NCBI RefSeq assembly: GCF_008124625.1
Contig: NZ_VNHM01000003.1
Coordinates: forward strand, 1-64,000
Reading direction: 5' to 3'
DNA: 64,000 nt
Source of the DNA: Desulfallas thermosapovorans DSM 6562
GTDB taxonomy: Bacteria > Bacillota > Desulfotomaculia > Desulfotomaculales > Desulfallaceae
A program made the translations under genes and the position numbers. Below the pieces are notes generated by a model, which saw only the letters and a list, made by a program, of their open reading frames with translations, ran no database searches and was not told the origin of the DNA. This document shows positions 3,284-30,189 of the stretch, one piece after another; the first letter of the stretch is position 1; each line of letters begins with the position of its first letter.

Positions 3284-3324
3284 TTGTGTTAAACCTCCTT
3301 ATCAGGAAGAAAACATGGAAAGAA

Positions 3325-3590
3325 AACTTTAACTGGCCTGACCACTTAACCCGCCCCGGCTACAGCAAAGGCGGAATTTTTAAACAGCACCAACAACCGG
3401 CTTAACACTTTAACAGGTACTACCAGTATGGTAACATGTACCATATTTAACGTCAACCGTAAAACATGCAAATTAACACTTAATTTCGTAAATTCAAAAA
3501 GCCTGTACAATTCCAAAAAAACATTCCGATTCCCCGCGTTTGTGGTTTATGATTACATGCGAGTGTAATGTGGTAAATAACGGCTGTTTA
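3325..3590. repeat. degraded direct copy of the DUF2935 gene end and its downstream region
   Basis: This stretch matches about 4693-5030 in the same orientation. Shared blocks include AACCCGCCCCGG near 3350/4730, the CCATAT-TTAACGTCAACCG region near 3440/4885, and AATTTCGTAAATTCAAAAA near 3483/4918. An ~80-base length difference lies in the middle. Similarity is lower than for other duplications here, suggesting an older event. Confidence 0.65.
3481..3590 (-). pseudogene. 3'-tail remnant of a DUF2935 gene
   Basis: The minus strand ends in the same FLNLRN-stop as the intact DUF2935 gene at 4916-5353. Upstream it can be aligned only with frameshifts, and several codons have changed. No intact reading frame or start exists. 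It sits directly next to the topB-tail remnant at 3643. Confidence 0.6.
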
Positions 3591-3642
3591 CAAAAAAGTT
3601 ACAAAAAAGGACGCAGCTATCAGGCTGGCGGTAATTGAAAAG

Positions 3643-3821
3643 TTTTTGTCTACCCGTGCGGGTACCGGGAAAAGCTCAGCTCCTTCAACAAGAGAAGGAA
3701 AGACGAAAAGCAAAGCATATCCAGGCGGGATGTGCAAAAATTCCTGCGGCAGCAAAACAATTCCGGGGAGTTGACCAACCCCGCCCTGGCGGAGGCCCTG
3801 GCTAAATTGAAGTTGAAATAG
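3643..3821 (+). pseudogene. 3'-tail fragment of topB
   Basis: Reads PCGYREKLSSFNKRRKDEK and so on to LAEALAKLKLK-stop, about 59 codons matching the TopB C-terminus with a handful of substitutions (for example GRDVQKYLRQQ becomes RRDVQKFLRQQ). The frame is intact but has no upstream coding part. If the segment between the inverted repeats flipped, this tail would complete topB on the plus strand. Confidence 0.8.
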
Positions 3822-3877
3822 CCACCAAATCGCGAGCATTATCATAAACAACCCGGCGCAGAGTCCCGGTTGTTAAG
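3643..3877. repeat. copy B of the ~235-bp inverted repeat
   Basis: Reverse-orientation partner of 352-590. On the plus strand it carries the topB tail, and on the minus strand the 3' end of the intact amidohydrolase gene. Both tails overlap convergently by about 20 bases, as in copy A. Confidence 0.85.
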
Positions 3878-4632
3878 CCCAGCCCGCGGAGAATCTCCAG
3901 CCCGGATTCCAATTGATGCTCAATGATGGGAAAATCGCTGCCGTACAAAAACCGGTGGGGGTGGCGCTCCATAAATTCTACCAGGCGTTCAACCGGCAGG
4001 TCGATCTGCCCTGCACCCATAACCCAGGAAGTATCGAGGTAAACGTTGGGGTACCTTTCCACCAGGGAAAAGGCCTTATCAAGCTCATAATAACCCAGGT
4101 GGGGAATAACCACCTTCAATTCGGGCCATTTTTCCATGACCCTTTCCATGTGATCAAGTCCCAGCAGGGGATCGGTTTGTGAATAAGGCGCGGTACCGGC
4201 ATGGATGATCACAGGCTTTTGCCGCTCCGCCGCCGCCCGGAAAACCGGCTCCAGTGCCGGGTCGTCAGCAGCGTATTGCTGCACCGCCAGTTGCAACTTA
4301 AAGCCGGCAAACTGCCAGTCATCCAGCACCGTGGACATCACCCGCTCCAGATTGTGGTCCCGGGGGTGAATGCAGGCAAAGGGTATAAAACAATCATACC
4401 GCCGGCATACATCCCGCACCCAGCGGTTTAACTCCAGCGACATATCGGGTTTGTGGGCGTAAGTCAACAAAAAGGCGCGCTCCACCCCCATCCCCCGCAG
4501 GGAAGCAACGTATCTATCCAATTCCCAGCCCGCATAGGGTATTTTCCAGCCAACATTGGCGAACCAGCGCCATATGGCGTCAAATAACCGCTGCGGAAAA
4601 AAGTGCACGTGGGCGTCCCAGATTTTTTCCAT
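3802..4632 (-). CDS. amidohydrolase (TIM-barrel metal-dependent hydrolase, COG2159-like)
   Basis: A 276-residue protein of the amidohydrolase-2 family, which includes decarboxylases and lactonases related to ACMSD. The metal-binding HxH is at the N-terminus (WDAHVHFFP), a barrel His in VIIHAGT, another in VIPHLGYYE, and the terminal-strand Asp in YGSDFPI. Substrate unknown. ATG 4632 follows GGTGGTGAAATC; a longer in-frame start at 4665 has no family support. Its 3' end overlaps the topB-tail remnant by 20 bases, and a copy of its own tail lies at 352-427. Confidence 0.85.
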   Translation of the reverse strand: MEKIWDAHVHFFPQRLFDAIWRWFANVGWKIPYAGWELDRYVASLRGMGVERAFLLTYAHKPDMSLELNRWVRDVCRRYDCFIPFACIHPRDHNLERVMSTVLDDWQFAGFKLQLAVQQYAADDPALEPVFRAAAERQKPVIIHAGTAPYSQTDPLLGLDHMERVMEKWPELKVVIPHLGYYELDKAFSLVERYPNVYLDTSWVMGAGQIDLPVERLVEFMERHPHRFLYGSDFPIIEHQLESGLEILRGLGLTTGTLRRVVYDNARDLVAISTSI

Positions 4633-4692
4633 GATTTCACCACCCGTAAATTTTGACTCCCCCAAAATAAGAAAGGGGCCTCTTATAGAGCA

Positions 4693-5030
4693 CCCCCGTT
4701 TACAACTTTAATTGGTCTGATCATTTAACCCGCCCCGGTTACAGCAAAGGTTTGCGGAGCTATTTAACCGGTTACTAAAAATCACCAGCTTACCGTTTTA
4801 AGAAACTGTTCATTTGAGCCAGTGCCTGCTTTTCGAACAAACTCTTTAATATGCATTATCATTATGGTAGCACGCACCATATTGTACGTCAACCGCAAAG
4901 TATGCAAATTGGCACTCAATTTCGTAAATTCAAAAAAGCTTGCACTACCCCTACGTAATATTCTGATTCCCTGCGTATGTGGTTTATGACTACCTGCGCC
5001 ACCGGATTATTGCGAATAACAGCACTGTTG
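4693..5030. repeat. parent copy of the DUF2935-end direct repeat
   Basis: Contains the 3' end of the intact DUF2935 gene and its downstream spacer. It is repeated in degraded form at 3325-3590. The two copies flank the amidohydrolase gene plus the topB-tail remnant. Confidence 0.6.
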
Positions 5031-5353
5031 GCAGACAGTTCATTTAAAAACTCAACGAATTTCCGGCTTTGATCTACAGCATAATGTATAAACTGAATTA
5101 TTTGCTGTTCCAGGGCATGATTTATATTGTAATTGGACCTGATGACTGCTTCTATATACTGCACCGCAATTGCTTGTGTTTGGGCAAGGGCCCGTTCCCA
5201 TTCCTGCAGCAGCTGTACATATTGTGGTTCCAAATTTGGCACTACCTGCCGGATAACCACTGTGTGCTCCGCCTCTTGTTGCTTCCAGAATCCGGTTTCG
5301 TCAAGCACCCTGAGCAGGTTTTTATCTCCATAATAGTATTGCAAAATAATCAT
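4916..5353 (-). CDS. DUF2935 family protein
   Basis: A 145-residue, mostly helical protein with an early QQEAEHTVVIRQVVP segment and a C-terminal RRESEYYVGVVQAFL. Conserved Glu/His pairs of this kind (EAEH, RRESEYY) resemble a four-helix metal-binding bundle, and DUF2935 proteins are typical of spore-forming Firmicutes. The function is not established. The gene stands alone. Its 3' end has been duplicated at 3481-3590. Confidence 0.75.
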   Translation of the reverse strand: MIILQYYYGDKNLLRVLDETGFWKQQEAEHTVVIRQVVPNLEPQYVQLLQEWERALAQTQAIAVQYIEAVIRSNYNINHALEQQIIQFIHYAVDQSRKFVEFLNELSANSAVIRNNPVAQVVINHIRRESEYYVGVVQAFLNLRN

Positions 5354-5433
5354 CCTTCCATATAAAATCTATTTCTACCATAATATTGTCACATGGGCGG
5401 GATGTGCCAAATTCCGCTGGATATACAAAACCA

Positions 5434-5472
5434 TAAAAAAACAGCCATATTCCCCCCAAGGGGACATGACTG
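5434..5472 (-). terminator. terminator after the MscS gene
   Basis: On the minus strand a stem (CAGTCATGTCCCC against GGGGAATATGGCTG, with small mismatches) is followed by seven T residues. It lies about 40 bases past the stop of the MscS gene, as expected of a rho-independent terminator. Confidence 0.7.
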
Positions 5473-5508
5473 CCCTTTGGCCGGCACCATGAAATTTATT
5501 AATACTGG

Positions 5509-6324
5509 CTAACTACTCCCCACCGCAGGCTCAAAACCCCGGGCGGTTTTAATGTTAATCTGCGGGTAAGCCAGGGCAATTCCGGCGTCCTGGAAGTATT
5601 CCAAAATTACCCGCCTGAATTCCCGTTCCAAAAACCAGTAATAGGCAGGTTCAACCACGGCGATCACCGTGAAAACCACTCCCCGCTCGTCCTTGTTGAT
5701 GTCCGTGATGCCATAAATTTGGGGCGGCTCAACGAAGGAACCGTTTTCCTGCTTGATCAGCTTATCGGCATGCTCACCGGTGATGTGCCGGCACACCCTC
5801 TCCAGTGTGCCGAACACCCTTTGCAAATTTTCCTCAAAGGGAACCGCAACCGAGACAACGGTCCGCAAATGGCCACGATTATAATTTCTAACTGTTTTAA
5901 TTTCCGAGTTGGCAATATAGAATTTTTTGCCGCTCCATTCCCGGATGGTGGTTAAACGCAACCCCAGTTCCTCCACCGTTCCGGCGACCTGATCGTTGAC
6001 TTCGATAAAGTCACCCACATGGAACTGGTCCTCAAACATAATAAAAAAACCGGTAATAATATCCTTGACCAGGTTTTGCGCGCCAAAACCCACGGCCAAC
6101 CCCACAATACCGGCACTGGCCAGCATGGGTGTAATGTTAATCTCAAAAACGGCCAGCATGGTCAGGACGGCCACAATATAGATGACGTAACGGGTTCCCG
6201 AAAGCAGCAGTGTCTTTAAGGTATTGGCTTTATTAAGGTCTCCGGTAGCCCTGTCAAATATTTTATTTACCAGGGCAACTCGCAGTTTTAGCAATAGGTA
6301 GGTAATAAATAAAATAATACCCAC
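5509..6324 (-). CDS. small-conductance mechanosensitive channel, MscS family
   Basis: Membrane channel that opens under tension to release solutes after hypo-osmotic shock. The pore helix region (PMLASAGIVGLAVGFGAQNLVKDII) and the beta domain (GDFIEVNDQVAGTVEELGLRLT) are typical. The GTG at 6324 lacks a clear ribosome site. The frame stays open upstream to 6414 and encodes a plausible first membrane segment (FQFFLTKALYVGIILFI). A GGTGAGG site precedes an ATT codon at 6414, so the true start may be a rare non-AUG codon further upstream. It lies near an osmolyte transporter gene pair. Confidence 0.88.
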   Translation of the reverse strand: MGIILFITYLLLKLRVALVNKIFDRATGDLNKANTLKTLLLSGTRYVIYIVAVLTMLAVFEINITPMLASAGIVGLAVGFGAQNLVKDIITGFFIMFEDQFHVGDFIEVNDQVAGTVEELGLRLTTIREWSGKKFYIANSEIKTVRNYNRGHLRTVVSVAVPFEENLQRVFGTLERVCRHITGEHADKLIKQENGSFVEPPQIYGITDINKDERGVVFTVIAVVEPAYYWFLEREFRRVILEYFQDAGIALAYPQINIKTARGFEPAVGSS

Positions 6325-6568
6325 GTATAAGGCTTTAGTTAAAAAAAATTGAAAGTTCTCTTCGACGTACTTTAAAACAATCTGGTACTGCCCCTGCCAA
6401 AAATTAGCAAAAATTTACCTCACCCCCGATGGTAGCTCCAAAATATCACACACGGTTAATGTTAATTTGTTGGTTAACCATGGTCAGCTAGAATTTTATA
6501 TTATGCCGGCGCAATACGTCAAGAAAGCTGAGGAATTACATCCTTCACCAACAGCCGGCCGGGTCACT

Positions 6569-8333: not shown

Positions 8334-9383
8334 TTAGAGTTTCTCTTGTACCTTCTGCGCTACATCGCTGGGGACCCAGTTTGTCCATACATCCGCCTTT
8401 TCCCTAAGAAACCACAGGGCCGCTTCTTCCGCTTCCGTATTTTCCCGCTGCATATAAGCCAATACTTCACTGATCAGGTTGCTATTCAAACTGTATTTAT
8501 CAAGAAACTCCACCACATCGGGAGCCCGTTCGGGCAAATCCTTGTTTATAACGATATTGACATCAACGGAAGGAAATGCACAGGCATAGCCATTCTCCCA
8601 TAACTCGTCGCTATATTCCGGCTCATGGATTTGTGTAAGATCATATAGACCGAATACCCATGTCGGCTCCCAGTAGTAGCCAAACCACGGTTCCCCCTTC
8701 TGGTAGGCTGATACTATTGAGGAAGCCAGTGAGGCACCGGAACCCGGGCGAAAAATATTATAATATTCGTCCAGACCATAACTAGCGAATTTATCCACCA
8801 GTATTTCATCCGCTTCCCAACCGGGAACGGCCCCGTAGAACCTTCCTTTGCCGGGGTCTTCCGGATCTTTAAACAATTCCCAGTACTTGGGGAGGTCCTC
8901 AATGGTTTTAAGGTCCGGGGCCATGGGTTCTATACCTCTTTCCGGGTCACCCTCTATCATGTATGTAGGCACATACAATCCCTGTACATCATCATTAAAA
9001 TTTGTTCCCAGGTCTATATAATCACCGGATTCAATTCCCTTGTCATAGGCTTCCTGAGCATTTTGGACCCATATTTCCATCGCCACATCGATATCTCCAT
9101 TGCGCAAACCCTGCATCAAAGGTATCGTTTCCCCGGGTATGCTATCCGTAGGATATTCATACCCGTTCTCAATAATAAACTGGGCAATCCTGTTGTTTAC
9201 CAGGGCGCTTTCCCAATTAAAATCACCAAACATAATAGCTTCTTTGGCGCCTTGCTGCACATCACCGGTTTCATTTTCAGAAGAACAGCCTACAGTTGCA
9301 ACTAACGAGAAAACAAGTAACATCATAAGGACAAAACCAATACGGGTTAAATCAGAAAATTTCACGCCACCTTTAAATAACAA
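8334..9383 (-). CDS. glycine betaine/carnitine-type ABC substrate-binding lipoprotein (OpuAC/ProX-like)
   Basis: A 349-residue extracellular lipoprotein. The signal segment with lipobox (SLVATVGC) puts the lipidated Cys near residue 33. The OpuAC domain follows, with aromatic-rich segments (FGDFNWESALVNNRIAQFI; WFGYYWEPTWVFGLYDL) of the kind that cage the trimethylammonium group. The start is TTG 9383 behind a GGAGGGGG site. It is the first gene of the pair with the permease. A clear promoter and dyad lie upstream. Confidence 0.9.
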   Translation of the reverse strand: MLFKGGVKFSDLTRIGFVLMMLLVFSLVATVGCSSENETGDVQQGAKEAIMFGDFNWESALVNNRIAQFIIENGYEYPTDSIPGETIPLMQGLRNGDIDVAMEIWVQNAQEAYDKGIESGDYIDLGTNFNDDVQGLYVPTYMIEGDPERGIEPMAPDLKTIEDLPKYWELFKDPEDPGKGRFYGAVPGWEADEILVDKFASYGLDEYYNIFRPGSGASLASSIVSAYQKGEPWFGYYWEPTWVFGLYDLTQIHEPEYSDELWENGYACAFPSVDVNIVINKDLPERAPDVVEFLDKYSLNSNLISEVLAYMQRENTEAEEAALWFLREKADVWTNWVPSDVAQKVQEKL

Positions 9384-22848: not shown

Positions 22849-24933
22849 TTAGCATTTAGAGACGGTAACGAAATGTTCCTGCATGGCTATGCTGCCCCCG
22901 GCCTGATCCCAGATTTCCAGTCCACCCTGCATAAAACAATTGTCGGCCAGGCCTTTACCATAGGCACGGCTCTCCACCGGCAGGCGGTGGCCAAAGCCAT
23001 GAACCACGAATACAGCTTCGGGGTGAATCAGCGGGGTCACTTTGGCCCGGATGGTTTCGGAATAGCCGTCCCGGCTGACCGTGACCCGCTCCCCATCGGT
23101 AATCTGAAGTTCTGCCGCAGCCCGGTCGTTAATCCACAATACGTTTTCGGACATCAGTTCCGACAACATGGGGTTGTTCACGGTATGGCCCTGGGTGTGC
23201 ACGGCACAGCGGCCAAAGGTCAGGCGGAATTGCCCTTTGGGCGGCCGTTTCGGGGCAGTGTAAGGTTTTAAAGATGGAATACCCTGTTTTTCGAGCCTCT
23301 CGGAAATAATATCGATTTTACCGGAGGGCGTTTTAAACCTGGGTTCCGTAAAGGGCGGGTCTTCAACGGGCTGGGCCAGGTTTACAAAACCGGTGGCATT
23401 GAAATCCTCAGGCCGTACCCCGGTGCCCTCCAACTGGTAGTTCCAGATATCCTCAATAGAGCTAAAGGCCAGCTCGCCAATCCCCAGGCGCCTGGCCAGC
23501 CCGCAGATGATCTCCCAGTCCGCCCGCGTATCGAAGCGCGGCTGAACAGCCCGCCGGCGCACGAAGAAATAGGGCCGTAGCCCGTTTTTACAGGCCATGA
23601 TACTTTCCCGCTCGAGATAGGTGGACAGGGGCAGCACTATATCTGAATACCAGGCGGTGTCCGACCACGTAAAGCTAACGGATACCAGCAGATCCAAATG
23701 ATCGAATATTTGCCGCAGGCGATCCGGGTCGGGAAAACCCATCAAGGGATCATGGCGGTAGGCGATATAGGCCTTCACCGGGTATGGTTCACCGGTTTCC
23801 ATGGCCTTGTAAACCAGGTGGGCCAAGCCCGGCCCCGCATCAAAATGCTTGTAAAGCCACCCCACACCGTCCGCACGCTTCTCGGTGGGCTTGGGGAACA
23901 GGTCCGCCAGTTTATTCAAACCCTTCCTCCCAACGTCGCCGGGTTTTTTGGTAAACATCAAACCACCCCTGGCACCGATGGAACCCAGGAGGGCATTGAT
24001 GATATAAGCTGTACGGGAGACATAAAAAGAATCGGTATAGCGGGCGGTCATCCAGCCGGGGTGCCAGATCACGGCCGGCCTGGCGGCGGCAATTTCCTGC
24101 ACGAAGCGCCGGATTTCACCGGCGGGAACCCCGGTTTCCCCTTCGGCCCATTCCGGGCTGTACGGGCGTACAAATTCTTCCAACTGGCCGAGATCATTTA
24201 TCCAGCGGGCGGCATATTCAGCATCATAGAGTTTCTTGAATAAGAGCTCGTGAATAACTGCCAGGTTAAGGGCGTAGTCACTTCCGGGTCTAACCAATAG
24301 GAACCGGTCAGCCTTCGTCGCCGAAATAGTGGCCCGGATATCAATAACCGTGATCTTGCAGCCCGCGTCCATGGCTGCAGTCAGGTTAGTAACCTCCTGC
24401 ACGTTGATAGCCTCAAATATATTGCGTGTTTGAAATACCACATGCCTGGCGTTTTTATAATCGTAAACCAGTTCCTCGCGGCCTGCACCGGTGACGGAAA
24501 TGCAGGCGTGGTGCACATTGCGGGCACAGGAACTGTCGTGATTGGTATAGTTGGGGGAGCCCAAACCGCGCACAAACGCCTGGTGCAAATCTTTAAACGG
24601 CCCGCTGCGGTCCGAAAAGGCGACGCTGCGCGCCCCGTGTTTATCCATCACCGCTTTGAGCCTGGCGGCGGTTTCCTCCAAGGCCTCATCCCAACTGACC
24701 TGGCGCCATTTACCTTCACCGCGCTTGCCCTCGCGAATCATTGGCCCCTGGATACGTTCATGATCATGAAGCAGTGCAATTCCAGCGGCACCCTTGGGGC
24801 ATATGGTCCCCTTCATCGCAGGTACGTGAGGATTTCCCTGGAGCAATTGCACATTGTCATTTTTTACCTCGGCCATGATGGGGCAACGCACAGTGCACAT
24901 ACCGCATACGCTGAATACCTGTTGGGTGGTCAT
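22849..24933 (-). CDS. molybdopterin-dependent oxidoreductase, thiosulfate/polysulfide-reductase-like catalytic subunit
   Basis: A 694-residue member of the DMSO-reductase superfamily. The N-terminal [4Fe-4S] motif is CGMCTVRC with a fourth Cys in TICPKGAAG. The likely Mo/W ligand is the Cys in NHDSSCARN, as in Phs/Psr-type enzymes. The C-terminal molydop-binding domain holds CAVHTQGHTVNNPM and HGFGHRLP. There is no Tat signal, so it should be cytoplasmic. No electron-transfer or membrane subunit is adjacent. ATG 24933 follows AAGGAG. A probable Moco riboswitch lies upstream. A 55-base piece of its 3' end is duplicated at 21935-21993. Confidence 0.88.
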   Translation of the reverse strand: MTTQQVFSVCGMCTVRCPIMAEVKNDNVQLLQGNPHVPAMKGTICPKGAAGIALLHDHERIQGPMIREGKRGEGKWRQVSWDEALEETAARLKAVMDKHGARSVAFSDRSGPFKDLHQAFVRGLGSPNYTNHDSSCARNVHHACISVTGAGREELVYDYKNARHVVFQTRNIFEAINVQEVTNLTAAMDAGCKITVIDIRATISATKADRFLLVRPGSDYALNLAVIHELLFKKLYDAEYAARWINDLGQLEEFVRPYSPEWAEGETGVPAGEIRRFVQEIAAARPAVIWHPGWMTARYTDSFYVSRTAYIINALLGSIGARGGLMFTKKPGDVGRKGLNKLADLFPKPTEKRADGVGWLYKHFDAGPGLAHLVYKAMETGEPYPVKAYIAYRHDPLMGFPDPDRLRQIFDHLDLLVSVSFTWSDTAWYSDIVLPLSTYLERESIMACKNGLRPYFFVRRRAVQPRFDTRADWEIICGLARRLGIGELAFSSIEDIWNYQLEGTGVRPEDFNATGFVNLAQPVEDPPFTEPRFKTPSGKIDIISERLEKQGIPSLKPYTAPKRPPKGQFRLTFGRCAVHTQGHTVNNPMLSELMSENVLWINDRAAAELQITDGERVTVSRDGYSETIRAKVTPLIHPEAVFVVHGFGHRLPVESRAYGKGLADNCFMQGGLEIWDQAGGSIAMQEHFVTVSKC

Positions 24934-25070: not shown

Positions 25071-25184
25071 ACCCAGGGTTTATCATCTCCTTTCCGCAAT
25101 GGGAGGCAGGCCGGTTTCCCGGCATACCCTGCCGGTTCAAGAACCATAACATGGTTAACAGGTTATTGAACTCGGAGAGCTGTT
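25071..25184 (-). ncRNA. putative molybdenum/tungsten cofactor (Moco) riboswitch aptamer
   Basis: In the leader of a molybdopterin oxidoreductase gene, the minus strand has GGCAGGG, a GCCGGGAAACCGGC hairpin and CTGCCTCCC, then GGAAAGGAGATG. This resembles the E. coli moaA Moco leader (hairpin, GCCUCCC, a few bases, GGAAAGG) from memory. CTCTCC near the 5' end can pair with GGAGA(T) as a closing stem. A terminator hairpin follows. A covariance search against the Moco-II/Moco families would decide; the gene context fits well. Confidence 0.55.
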
Positions 25185-25343
25185 TTAATTTATTGATTAT
25201 TCAAACCAGTAGTATTTTATATGATGCTTGATAACGCGTCAAGAAAGTAGCGGACTTGGCAAAAAATAATAATGAAAAAACGCGTTTAAAGTACTATAAT
25301 AGGTAAAATATTGTTATTCTTAAAACTGGAACGGGGACGTAAA

Positions 25344-26036
25344 ATGCAAACGCAAGAATTGAAACAGGGAATAAACGACTCCATCCCGATAGTGTTGGGC
25401 TATTTACCTTTGGGTTTTGCCTTTGGGGTGCTGGCAACTGATGTGGGCATGTCAATTGTCCAGGCCACCATGATGTCGGTGTTGTGCTTTACAGGGGCCG
25501 GACAGTATATCGCCATTGGAGTTTTGCAAGCCGGCGGAGCGGTATTCACCATTATCCTGGCCAACGTTTTAGTGAATTTAAGATATTTGCTGTTTTCCAC
25601 ATCACTGGTGCCTTACCTCAAGGGCCATGTCCCAACCGCCACGGGCAGCATTTTATCCTACGGGCTGACCGATGAAACCTATGCCGTGGCCATGAACCGC
25701 TACCAGCAGCATGCGCCCACCGCTTCCTACATGGCTGGACTTAACCTTAGTTCACATACTGGCTGGATCGCCAGTACATTGCTGGGCGCCATACTGGGCA
25801 GCTATATCGGCGACACGGACCGCCTGGGCCTGGGTTTTACTCTGCCGGCAATGTATATTTGCCTGCTGGTGCTTATGATCAGAAATAAACCGGATGTTAT
25901 TGTGGCTTTATCCTCCGCCTTTATTTGTTTGTTAATTGGTTATTTAATGCCTGCCACCATGGCAAATATGTTTAATATCATCATAGCAACCATTGCCGCA
26001 GCCAGTTTGGGGGTGTTCATCAGTGAGCGGAAATAG
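25344..26036 (+). CDS. azlC: branched-chain amino acid exporter large subunit, AzlC family
   Basis: A 230-residue membrane protein with several hydrophobic helices and the AzlC pattern DSIPIVLGYLPLGFAFGVLA, then CFTGAGQYIA and SYGLTDETYAVA. With AzlD it exports branched-chain amino acids or analogues across the membrane. ATG 25344 is preferred; an in-frame TTG lies at 25311. Its 3' end overlaps azlD by 14 bases, so the pair is co-translated. Confidence 0.92.
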   Translation: MQTQELKQGINDSIPIVLGYLPLGFAFGVLATDVGMSIVQATMMSVLCFTGAGQYIAIGVLQAGGAVFTIILANVLVNLRYLLFSTSLVPYLKGHVPTATGSILSYGLTDETYAVAMNRYQQHAPTASYMAGLNLSSHTGWIASTLLGAILGSYIGDTDRLGLGFTLPAMYICLLVLMIRNKPDVIVALSSAFICLLIGYLMPATMANMFNIIIATIAAASLGVFISERK

Positions 26037-26346
26037 TATCTGGATCATGATCATCGGTGTTTCGCTGGTGTCCCTGTTGCCACGTATCCTGCCGGTGGCA
26101 ATGTTTTCCCGCTATGAGTTCCCTGAACCGGTGAAACGGTGGCTCTCCTTTGTGGCCCCGGCGGTTTTGGGCGCTTTAACGGCGATAAGTGTACTGGCAC
26201 CGGAGGGCGAAATTAATATCAGTATTCAGAATAAATATATCTGGGCCTTCATACCCACACTGCTGGTGGCCATCAAAACCAGAAGCCTGTTCTACAGCTT
26301 GCTGGTGGGCATTGTTACCATGGCTCTGCTGTATAATTTTATGTAA
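26023..26346 (+). CDS. azlD: branched-chain amino acid exporter small subunit, AzlD family
   Basis: A 107-residue membrane protein with three to four helices and the typical VSLLPRILPVAMF near the N-terminus and a C-terminal KTRSLFYSLLVGIVTMALLY. The start is GTG 26023, inside the azlC 3' end, preceded by GGGGGTG. It is the partner subunit of AzlC. Confidence 0.9.
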   Translation: MSGNSIWIMIIGVSLVSLLPRILPVAMFSRYEFPEPVKRWLSFVAPAVLGALTAISVLAPEGEINISIQNKYIWAFIPTLLVAIKTRSLFYSLLVGIVTMALLYNFM

Positions 26347-26410
26347 TATCCACACCAAAAGCCGGGTGGTGGTACCTTTCGCTCGCCGGGCTAAATTTCC
26401 CGGGTTAAAT

Positions 26411-26454
26411 AAAAGCCACCTGTGAAATGCCCAAACATTTCACAGGTGGCTTTT
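26411..26454. terminator. bidirectional terminator between azlD and gatB
   Basis: A 19-bp perfect stem (AAAAGCCACCTGTGAAATG and complement) with a 6-base loop separates two convergent genes. It gives TTTT tracts on both strands. Confidence 0.85.
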
Positions 26455-26492
26455 ATTTGGAATCTTAATTTTTTTTCGCCCTATTATTTCTT

Positions 26493-27935
26493 CTATTCCC
26501 CCAGTTTTTCCCGCAGCATGGAATTGACCACACCGGGGTTGGCCTGGCCCCTGGTGGCTTTCATCACCTGACCCACCAAAAAACCGATGGCCTGCTTCTT
26601 ACCGGACTGGTAATCCGCCACCGATTTGGGGTTTTTGGCAATAACCTCATCAATAATTTGGGCTAGTTGCCCCTGGTCGGATATCTGGGACAAACCCCTT
26701 TCCTTGACAATCTGCTCCGGGTCTTTGCCCTCCTCGAACATAACCTCGAATACCTCTTTACCGATCTTATTACTGATGGTACCCTTTTTAATCAACTGCA
26801 GCAATGAAGCCAGGCCGCCGGGGGTAATCCTGGATTCACCCAATTCCATATTACGGGCATTCAACAGCCGCAAAAGTTCACCCATGATCCAGTTGCTTAC
26901 TGTTTTCGCATCGGGAAACTCTTTTAACGCAGCGTCAAAGAACTCAGCCAGGGCCAGGGAACTGGTAATTACGCCGGCATCGTAATCCGGCAGCCCGTGC
27001 TCTTCCACCAGGCGCCTCCGGCGGGCGTCGGGCAATTCCGGGATGGAAGCCCTGACCTCCTCTATCCATTCTTCCGTCAGCTCGATGGGAGGAAGCTCAT
27101 GCTCGATGAAACACCTGTAGTCCGGGTTTTCCTTGTTGCGCATGGACACGGTTATACCCTTGTTTTCATCCCATCCACGGGTTTCCTGAACCACCTTTCC
27201 GCCGTCTTCCAGTACATCTATTTGCCTTTCCACTTCATATTCAATGGCCCTTTGCACAGCCCGGAAAGAGTTCATATTCTTTATCTCGGTTTTTGTACCC
27301 AGTGTGGTAGTCCCAACGGGGCGAACCGAAACGTTGGCGTCACAGCGCAGCGAGCCTTGCTCCATTTTCACATCGGAAACACCGGCATATTCCAGATGGG
27401 CCTTCAGTTTCTCCAGATAGGCTTTAGCTTCTGCGCCCGAGCGAATGTCAGGTTCCGAAACTATTTCAATGAGGGGCATACCGGACCGGTTGTAGTCCAC
27501 ATAAGAGTAACGTGAACTGGTAATGGACCCGCCTGAATGGACCAGTTTCCCGGGATCCTCTTCAATATGCGCCCTGGTAATGTTAATTCTTTTTTTCTCG
27601 CCATCAACATCTATATCAAGATATCCATTATAAGCGATTGGCCGGAATACCTGGGAAATTTGATAGCCTTTGGGCAGGTCGGGATAATAATAATTTTTTC
27701 TATCAAACCAGGTATAAGTACCTATCTCACAGTTTAGAGCCAAACCAGCCCTGGTTGCCAATTCCACAACCTTTTTATTTAAAACACCTGTACTACCGGG
27801 CAGGCCCAGGCAAACGGGACACACCTGGGTGTTGGGTTCCTTCCCGAATTCCGTAGAACAGCCGCAAAATATTTTGGTATCCGTCTTTAACTCTACGTGA
27901 ACCTCCAAGCCAATGACAGCTTCGTATCTACTCAT
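26493..27935 (-). CDS. gatB: aspartyl/glutamyl-tRNA amidotransferase subunit B
   Basis: A 480-residue kinase/transamidase subunit that activates misacylated Glu-tRNA(Gln) or Asp-tRNA(Asn) with ATP and transfers ammonia to it. The N-terminal cradle shows [15 protein letters not shown] and [10 protein letters not shown] (with CGCS just before). [22 protein letters not shown] is conserved, and the C-terminal YqeY-like tRNA-binding tail ends in [18 protein letters not shown]. It appears intact. It is the third gene of gatC-gatA-gatB, 22 bases after gatA. ATG 27935 follows CAGGGGGTG. Confidence 0.96.
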
Positions 27936-27957: not shown

Positions 27958-29418
27958 TTAAAGCAATAATCCGGGTTTTAACCTGGTTTGGTCAGTACTT
28001 TGCTCCAGGGTATAGCCCACCCTGAGCAGAGTCCCTTCGTCAAAATGCCGGGCCATTAGCTGCAATCCCACAGGCAGCCCCTCCACCAAACCAAAGGGCA
28101 GGGACATGGCAGGCACCCCGGCCAGGTTAGCCGGCATGGTGTAGACTTTGGACAGGTACATAGCCACTGGATCGCCCGCTTTTTCTCCTATTTTGAAAGG
28201 GGTGGCAGGGCTGGTGGGTGTTAACAGGCAGTCAAATTTTTCAAAGGCCCGGTCAAAGTCCTGTTTGACCAGAGTACGCACCTTTAGGGCTTTAACGTAA
28301 TAAGCCTCATAATTACCGGCACTTAAGGCAAAGGTGCCCAGCATGATGCGTCTTTTCACCTCTTCACCAAAACCCTGGCCGCGGGTTTTTTTGAACATGG
28401 TCAGCACATCTTCAGCTTCCACCCTGAGGCCATGCCTGATTCCGTCAAAACGGGCCAGGTTGGAACTGGCTTCAGCCGAGGATATGATGTAATGGGCGGC
28501 CGGGGCGTATTCGATATGGGGCATGGCCACCTCTTCGCAAACGGCCCCCAATTCTTCCAGTTTAACAATGGCCTCCCGGACCTTTGCCGCCACACGGGGC
28601 GACACGTCCGTACCGAAATATTCTCCGGGCAGGCCAATCCTTAACCCCTTGACGTCGTTCACCAGGCTCTTTCTAAAGTCCGGCACATCCACAGAGGCTG
28701 ATGTAGCATCTTTATCATCGTGACCGCAAATTTCGTTCAGGATCAGAGCAAGATCCGTCATATCCCTGGTAAAGACCCCGATTTGCCCCAAAGAGGAAAC
28801 ATGGGATATCAAGCCAAACCGGGAGGCGTAACCGTATGTAGGTTTAAACCCTATAACACCACAAAAGGCCGCCGGCTGGCGGATACCGCCCCCGGCGTCC
28901 GTGCCCAAAGCAAAGGCCGCCTCACCTGCGGCCACCGCTGCTGCAGCCCCCCCGCCGGAACCGCCGGGTACGGCATCAAAGTCAAAGGGATTGCTGGTGG
29001 CGAAATACCCTGAATTCTCGGTGGAGGAACCCATGGCAAACTCATCCATGTTACATTTGCCCACGAGTATGGCACCGGCTCCCTTTAACCTCCCGGCTAC
29101 GGTGGCATCATAGGGCGGGATAAAATTGTATAATATCTGGGAAGCACAGGTGGTCTTGACTCCCCGGGTGCATATATTGTCACCGGCGGCCGTGGGGATT
29201 CCCGCCAGGGGAGAAAGCTCTTCTCCCCTGGCCCGCCTCTCATCGACAGCCCTGGCCCGGGCTAAAGCTTCTTCTTTTGTTAACGTCACAAAGGCTTTAA
29301 TTTTATCTTCCACCCGGCTGATATGTTCCAGATAAAATCTGGTTAATTCTTCGGAACTAACCTCCTTTTTCCCCATTAGTTCGCTAAGATGATGAACTGA
29401 TAATGTATTTAATTGCAT
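27958..29418 (-). CDS. gatA: aspartyl/glutamyl-tRNA amidotransferase subunit A with altered catalytic residues
   Basis: A 486-residue GatA homologue, full length and collinear with the family. GatA normally hydrolyses glutamine with a Lys-cisSer-Ser triad and channels ammonia to GatB. Here the Lys position of GIP-xx-KDN is Gly79 (GIPTAAGDN). The nucleophile of TGGSIRQPA is Gly178 ([10 protein letters not shown]). Ser155 of the GGSSGG motif is Gly, although the cis-Ser at 154 remains. Further changes are PTYGYASR for PTYGRVSR and SSLGQIG for SSLDQIG. Amidase activity should be lost. ATG 29418 follows CAGGAGG. It is operonic with gatC and gatB. Confidence 0.93.
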
Positions 29419-29432
29419 CGGATTCCTCCTGT

Positions 29433-29717
29433 TTAAACAATTCGGGGCACTTTAAAGGCCCCCGCTTCCTCTTCCGGTGCATTGGCCAGGGCCTGCTCTT
29501 TATCCAGACCTGGCTGCAGCTTGTCTTCCCGGTAAACATTCTTCAGCGGGAGGACATGGGCGGCAGGCTCCACGCCAGTGGTATCCAATTTGTTTAACAT
29601 ATCCAGGTAGTCCAATATGGCATTAAGGGACTGCGTATAGGTCGCTTTTTCGTCTGCTGTCAAATCAAGGCGGCTCATCAAAGCCACATGTTCTACCTCT
29701 TGCTCGGTAATTTTCAC
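29433..29717 (-). CDS. gatC: aspartyl/glutamyl-tRNA amidotransferase subunit C
   Basis: A 94-residue clamp subunit that wraps the GatA-GatB interface. It has the usual start ITEQEVEHVALMSRLDLTADE and the C-terminal GAFKVPRIV. The start is GTG 29717 behind AAGGATGAG. It is the first gene of the gatCAB set, 14 bases before gatA, and appears intact. Confidence 0.94.
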   Translation of the reverse strand: MKITEQEVEHVALMSRLDLTADEKATYTQSLNAILDYLDMLNKLDTTGVEPAAHVLPLKNVYREDKLQPGLDKEQALANAPEEEAGAFKVPRIV

Positions 29718-30189
29718 AGGCAGCTCATCCTTCTTTCCTCAATCATTCTTACCGTCATACTACATATCGCCTTAATTATATTAAAAGTTTCGCATTGTGG
29801 CAATTATCACCGCCATGCGGAAGTCGGGGGAACATCTTCAGGCGGTGTTTCCACTGGAATACAATGAACAAAGAAGATTAAGCCCGGAGGAATTCCTCCA
29901 GGCTCAATCTTCATTATTGCGCAGGTCAAGGGCCATATGTATATAGTGTTGTGCATGCTCATAATGTCGTGGAAAGCAACTCCGATGCTGTCAAGTATAC
30001 CGGTAACAAATTGAAGAAAAATAGGCGGTTTCATTGGACCGGTTTGCAACAGGCAGGCTATGGGTAGACCGTTTCCGTGCGTAAAAAAAAGCATAATGCA
30101 CATCAACACAAGTTATTACTGATAAGGCAAACTATAACCCTTGTTTGTTTCTAAGCGCCAGTGCTGTAACCAGGGTCTGTGACAAGATT
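29718..30189. other. intergenic region between the kinase gene and gatC
   Basis: About 470 bases. It holds an imperfect long hairpin at 29873-29912 (GAAGATT-AGCC-GGAGG against CCTCC-GGCT-AATCTTC), which could end the kinase transcript on the minus strand. Short open frames occur on both strands but lack ribosome sites and recognisable domains. The gatC promoter must lie here, but I cannot place it. Confidence 0.4.

Follow-up and report, generated by a model that had tools for sequence, protein, structure and literature searches.

Why should a bacterium retain a tRNA amidotransferase operon whose glutaminase site has been destroyed? The question is raised by the window analysed here, the whole stretch of 64,000 nucleotides (nt) at positions 1–64,000 of contig NZ_VNHM01000003.1 from Desulfallas thermosapovorans DSM 6562 (genome G000), a bacterium of the Desulfotomaculales. 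It carries homologues of GatA, GatB, and GatC in one operon, in the order C-A-B, each scoring above its TIGRFAM equivalog cut-off (TIGR00132, TIGR00133, and TIGR00135, respectively). Our analysis indicates that this operon probably encodes a second, laterally spread GatCAB, hereafter GatCAB2, which has changed its function and no longer uses glutamine through GatA. The three genes are as follows:

29433–29717, minus strand: gatC2, first gene of the operon, 94 residues with a GTG start; TIGR00135 score of 93.6 bits (cut-off 47.1).
27958–29418, minus strand: gatA2, 486 residues; TIGR00132 score of 590 bits (cut-off 481); without an equivalent of K79, S155, S178, Y309, and D425.
26493–27935, minus strand: gatB2, 480 residues; P50G, K76W, D97F, A128P, Y275C, P277I, and D280E, with the ATP/Mg residues and zinc-finger cysteines kept.

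In the canonical GatA comparison set, the Ser-cisSer-Lys triad (K79, S154, and S178) and residues Y309, R357, and D424 are invariant in 91 of 91 proteins. The triad is broken in the window GatA by K79G and S178G, and among the residues corresponding to the glutamine-binding Y309, R358, and D425 of Staphylococcus aureus, only the arginine is kept, the other two being changed by Y309H and D425K. A role in glutamine binding has been described for D418 and R334 of the yeast enzyme (PMC4027206); the residue numbering was transferred from these to the window GatA by our own alignment. The codons concerned are:

29182–29184, minus strand: codon 79, Lys to Gly (GGT).
28954–28959, minus strand: codons 154–155, cis-Ser S154 kept (TCC) and S155 changed to Gly (GGC, 28954–28956).
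28894–28896, minus strand: codon 175, Thr to Ala.
28885–28887, minus strand: codon 178, the nucleophile, Ser to Gly (GGT).
28786–28788, minus strand: codon 211, Asp to Gly.
28492–28494, minus strand: codon 309, Tyr to His (CAT).
28147–28149, minus strand: codon 424, equivalent to S. aureus D425 by alignment, Asp to Lys (AAA).

A first-pass annotation had described GatA as full length, in agreement with its TIGR00132 score, and had reported glycine at positions 79, 155, and 178, which was confirmed codon by codon. It had also listed two changed residues nearby. One of them, D211G, is present; the other, an Arg-to-Tyr change at position 197, was rejected as a loss, since this site is variable and mostly Ala or Ser in relatives. 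Y309H and D424K are additional pocket losses absent from that list, and together with the missing triad residues they support the proposed loss of the glutaminase site.

GatA and GatB searches covered 113 sampled genomes of the class (searching at the order or at the class level gave the identical 113) and were extended by a phylum-wide scan of Bacillota. GatCAB2 operons were found in 12 of the 113 genomes and in four elsewhere in Bacillota (G223, G383, G446, and G484, where G383 is UBA5318). These 16 operons form one clade with 100/100 support in both the GatA and the GatB tree. The carriers include Sporotomaculum syntrophicum FB and metagenome-assembled genomes labelled Desulfoscipio geothermicus, Desulfotomaculaceae STF1_176, and Peptococcaceae UBA5318, and gatA2 and gatC2 adjoin gatB2 in nearly all readable loci. 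Another hit of the phylum scan, G485 (824 bits), was excluded from the clade, as its GatA is intact and its GatB motifs are canonical. The GatA2 counts given below cover 15 readable proteins, and the GatB2 counts cover 16, compared with 68 canonical GatBs.

At least one triad residue is lost in 15 of 15 readable GatA2 proteins, compared with an intact triad in all 91 canonical ones. Because the 14 relatives of the window protein are also broken, with different residues, sequencing error cannot be the general cause. K79 is lost in 14 of the 15, with eight different replacements (G, N, D, S, T, A, I, and Q), and in the sole protein keeping it, that of UBA5318, the triad is broken by S178G. Eight proteins have G, F, D, or A in place of S178, the cis-Ser loop is altered in most, Y309H is present in 14, and D424 is lost in 14. 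The broken invariant sites cluster in motif segments around the glutaminase site (19/25 inside, versus 29/80 for the kept sites; Fisher p = 0.001, a value that is indicative only because the segments were picked by the analyst). From these losses, we infer that glutamine hydrolysis by GatA2 would be impossible or nearly so.

Two further features of GatA2 were observed. In L169 and L170 (genomes G107 and G105), about 10 residues are lost near positions 139–148 and more near 408–413, while GatB2 is full length; the glutaminase region is thereby eroded further. In the GatA2 pocket, A205S (15/15) and Y309H (14/15) are fixed, in contrast to the varied replacements at K79, and may mark a new use of the pocket. 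AlphaFold models built from 13-row alignments reached a mean predicted local distance difference test score of only 32 for GatA2 and 61 for GatB2, too low for structural mapping.

GatB had been judged intact in the first-pass annotation. This holds for its length and ATP/Mg residues, but several positions that are invariant in other GatBs are changed. P50G and P277I/M/L are found in 16/16 GatB2 proteins, versus Pro at both positions in 68/68 canonical GatBs. Similarly, Y275C/S and A128P occur in 16/16 (canonical Tyr in 67/68 and Ala in 62/68, respectively), and D280E in 15/16 (canonical Asp in 68/68). K76W and D97F are likewise present in all 16. The altered motif of the window protein is located as follows:

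27096–27128, minus strand: gatB2 codons 270–280, canonical motif (E)(A)xDYRYFPEPD.

The ATP/Mg residues of the yeast enzyme, E34, H36, E156, E186, T189, N230, and S232 (PMC4027206), were assigned, on the basis of motif and spacing, to E11, H13, E125/E126, E157, S160, N201, and S203. E11, H13, E125, E126, E157, N201, and S203 are kept in 16/16 GatB2 proteins and S160 in 13/13; K89 and the zinc-finger cysteines are also kept, and the C-terminal tRNA-binding domains are well conserved. GatB2 is probably still able to bind ATP, Mg, and tRNA, and its substitutions would sit on the active site's acceptor side.

The ratio of nonsynonymous to synonymous divergence (dN/dS) is well below 1 in all three genes, with pairwise values of 0.04–0.12 for gatB2 and 0.11–0.30 for gatA2. 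The rate of change is lower in GatB2 than in GatA2, and purifying selection on GatB2 is strong. No stop codon or frameshift was present in any GatA2 or GatB2 gene read, so that the usual marks of a pseudogene (stops, frameshifts, and dN/dS near 1) are missing from gatCAB2. In the matched pairs G092–G093 and G108–G110, the dN of gatA2 is approximately twice that of gatA1 at similar dS (0.075 versus 0.031 and 0.081 versus 0.039), whereas the dN of gatB2 is lower than that of gatB1. In the trees, the GatB2 stem is long (0.45–0.56 changes per site) and its tips are short, whereas the GatA2 stem is ordinary (0.16–0.19) and its tips are long. In the GatA tree, UBA5318, which has the least eroded GatA2, splits first (85/93 for the other 14), which fits a change of GatB preceding the full erosion of GatA. 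The nearest intact relatives are Peptococcaceae-type operons (L048, L050–L056, and, in the GatB tree, L211) rather than the canonical gatCABs of the carrier genomes. Between families (G000–G102 and G000–G108), the dS of copy 2 is approximately 0.85–1.2, while that of copy 1 is saturated or above 2, according to Nei-Gojobori distances, which are rough at this depth. The low values for copy 2 point to lateral spread of gatCAB2 between families.

In the proposed mechanism, GatA2 and GatC2 would be retained as the scaffold of the trimer, while GatB2 would still bind tRNA and ATP and activate a carboxylate by phosphorylation. GatB2 would then finish the reaction with a nucleophile not derived from GatA, either free ammonia or another amine, or it would use a different acceptor. 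As for the order of events, a gatCAB of the Peptococcaceae type would have been duplicated or acquired, followed by a burst of GatB change, after which the unused glutaminase pocket would have eroded. More specifically, and only tentatively, GatCAB2 may be a new tRNA-dependent enzyme in anaerobic Bacillota, in which an aminoacyl-tRNA side chain, or some other acceptor, is phosphorylated by GatB2 and coupled to a nucleophile other than ammonia from glutamine; the result would be a modified aminoacyl-tRNA or else a new product.

Several observations weigh against a changed function. Arg357 is kept in 12 of 15 GatA2 proteins, with moderate dN/dS, and part of the pocket may still be in use. GatB positions 76, 97, and 98 vary in bona fide GatBs as well (R76, F97, and Y98 in Thermotoga maritima); judged by the alignment, the strongly diagnostic GatB2 positions are only 49–50, 128, 275, 277, and 280. 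In addition, nothing indicating a substrate was found: no gene besides gatCAB2 is common to the neighbourhoods of 15 loci, no T-box lies upstream of gatC2 in the window or in six relatives, and the tRNA set of the genome (51 genes) contains nothing exotic. Finally, the ancestral function could persist with ammonia.

This last alternative, in which GatCAB2 continues to produce Gln-tRNA(Gln), Asn-tRNA(Asn), or both from free ammonia and GatA2 is a scaffold only, survives best among the competing explanations; it is possible, although we doubt it. An enzyme of this family can use NH4Cl in vitro, and a glutaminase-impaired variant of yeast GatFAB used NH4Cl better (PMC4027206). The tRNA-Gln and tRNA-Asn of the genome carry U1-A72, the pair read by amidotransferases (PMC9976931), and the ATP/Mg residues of GatB2 are kept. 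However, these tRNAs are already served by other routes. The genome (2.96 Mb, 99.99% complete) contains two matches each to the Amidase and GatB_N families, one in the window and the other on contig C5 at approximately 137–140 kb. The second GatA envisaged in the first-pass annotation therefore exists, within an intact gatCAB, and its triad motifs are unbroken (AVKD, GGSSGGS, and DTGGSIR). GlnRS and AsnRS, for which a genome search had been suggested, are both present, along with one GluRS, one AspRS, and an asparagine synthetase-family gene. Given the intact gatCAB, GlnRS, AsnRS, and the asparagine synthetase-family gene, the ordinary supply of Gln-tRNA and Asn-tRNA need not depend on the window copy, which is redundant in this respect. 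The situation is similar in the relatives: among the 12 class-level carriers, at least 11 also have a canonical gatCAB, the exception being G107, which is only 79% complete, and two GluRS/GlnRS-type genes occur in 12/12. Moreover, ammonia use alone leaves unexplained the fixed changes at otherwise invariant GatB positions and their burst on the stem branch, for which the sequences favour a changed donor or acceptor as the better explanation. Of the other two options in the first-pass annotation, GatB fed by free ammonia on a GatA scaffold and a new role for the complex, these fixed changes favour the second, in the form of a new or altered role.

A non-enzymatic role, in which GatCAB2 acts by binding tRNA, including mischarged tRNA, and so regulates, sequesters, or assists assembly, is unlikely. 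It would be consistent with the lost glutaminase, the changes at invariant GatB2 positions, and the well-conserved C-terminal tRNA-binding domains, but it is made less likely by the retention of all ATP/Mg residues in 16/16 GatB2 proteins, and the very low dN/dS of gatB2 also speaks against it. That a redundant copy is simply decaying, with GatA falling apart beside GlnRS, AsnRS, and a second gatCAB, is highly improbable. The many different catalytic replacements and the deletions in L169 and L170 are as expected under relaxed constraint; nevertheless, the reading frames are open, dN/dS is well below 1 in all three genes, GatB2 is more conserved than the working GatB1, and the operon has apparently spread between families. 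The first-pass annotation had also argued against decay, on the grounds that GatB and GatC were intact: its conclusion stands, owing to purifying selection and conservation in 16 genomes, but its reasoning does not, as GatB is remodelled. A mixed trimer, in which GatB2 would be paired with GatA1, the glutaminase of the canonical complex, as suggested by the co-occurrence of both complexes in 11 of the 12 class-level carriers, can hardly be credited, because nearly all readable loci have kept gatA2 and gatC2 next to gatB2, under purifying selection.

A second GatCAB of changed function, the reading preferred here, can be set against known systems. With the GatCABs of S. aureus (PDB 2DF4 and 2G5H), Aquifex aeolicus (PDB 3H0L), and T. 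maritima (PDB 3AL0), GatCAB2 shares the C-A-B operon, subunits of full length by sequence, the GatB ATP/Mg residues, the zinc-finger cysteines, and the C-terminal tRNA-binding domains. It differs from them in a GatA without a working triad, Y309, and D425, and in the fixed GatB2 changes within the LP (49–50), EEDAGK (128), and DYRYFPEPD (272–280) motifs. Archaeal GatDE has a different architecture, in which the glutaminase GatD is unrelated to GatA. The C-terminal region of GatE (PDB 2D6F and 1ZQ1) is shared with GatB. Yeast mitochondrial GatFAB (PDB 4N0H) has the same GatA/GatB pair and can use ammonium as a donor when its glutaminase is impaired (PMC4027206), but it keeps the GatA triad (S154, S130, and K52) and has GatF as the third subunit. 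Redundant routes in one genome are also known from Bdellovibrio: the excerpted account (PMC4206432) gives AsnRS, GlnRS, and one canonical GatCAB, the last thought to make Asn-tRNA, and describes no second GatCAB with a dead glutaminase.

No description of a GatCAB2 paralogue was found in a search of the open-access literature, with subscription papers outside its scope. Current annotation masks GatCAB2, as each of the three subunits scores above the cut-off of its equivalog model and is labelled as an ordinary GatA, GatB, or GatC. In the GatCABs consulted for comparison in that literature, the glutaminase is coupled to the transamidase via an ammonia channel. GatCAB2 would represent a natural uncoupling experiment, in which the glutaminase was abandoned while the transamidase was remodelled and spread between families. 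It allows one to ask which roles GatA has beyond ammonia supply, whether GatB can use other donors or acceptors, and what is gained in cells that possess GlnRS, AsnRS, and a normal GatCAB.

A separate lineage provides a comparable locus. In L039 (genome G027, contig C9), a tandem second gatCAB lies at 3285–6491 beside an intact one; its GatA has S178A and lacks three residues of the cis-Ser loop, and in its GatB the otherwise invariant K89 is replaced by Cys. Going by its sequence, a GatCAB with a broken glutaminase arose independently at L039. An apparent convergence of this dead copy with GatB2 at positions 76, 97, and 98 was dropped, since these positions also vary in bona fide GatBs, that of T. 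maritima among them.

The surroundings of the operon in the window comprise two further elements:

29775–29803, minus strand: promoter-like TTGCCA-17-TATAAT (11/12), just upstream of gatC2, a consensus match only.
26407–26458, no strand: perfect 23-bp inverted repeat with a 6-nt loop, between gatB2 and azlD.

The inverted repeat is probably a bidirectional terminator. An azlC-azlD pair for branched-chain amino acid export (25311–26346, plus strand) lies directly downstream of gatB2 and is convergent with it, and AzlC is also found near gatCAB2 in L049 and L165. Among the clade, recurrent but not general neighbours are histidine kinases (five loci), a transporter-like cluster (one subgroup), and AzlC/AzlD (two to three loci). 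In L164, a tRNA-Pro (TGG) at 8999–9075 (plus strand) stands beside the gatCAB2 operon of G075 and is a possible insertion site; the sequence retrieved around each of the other 14 operons contains no tRNA. Farther along the window, a molybdenum/tungsten cofactor riboswitch (25073–25189, minus strand; Rfam RF01055, 61 bits) is located just upstream of a molybdopterin oxidoreductase gene (22849–24933, minus strand).
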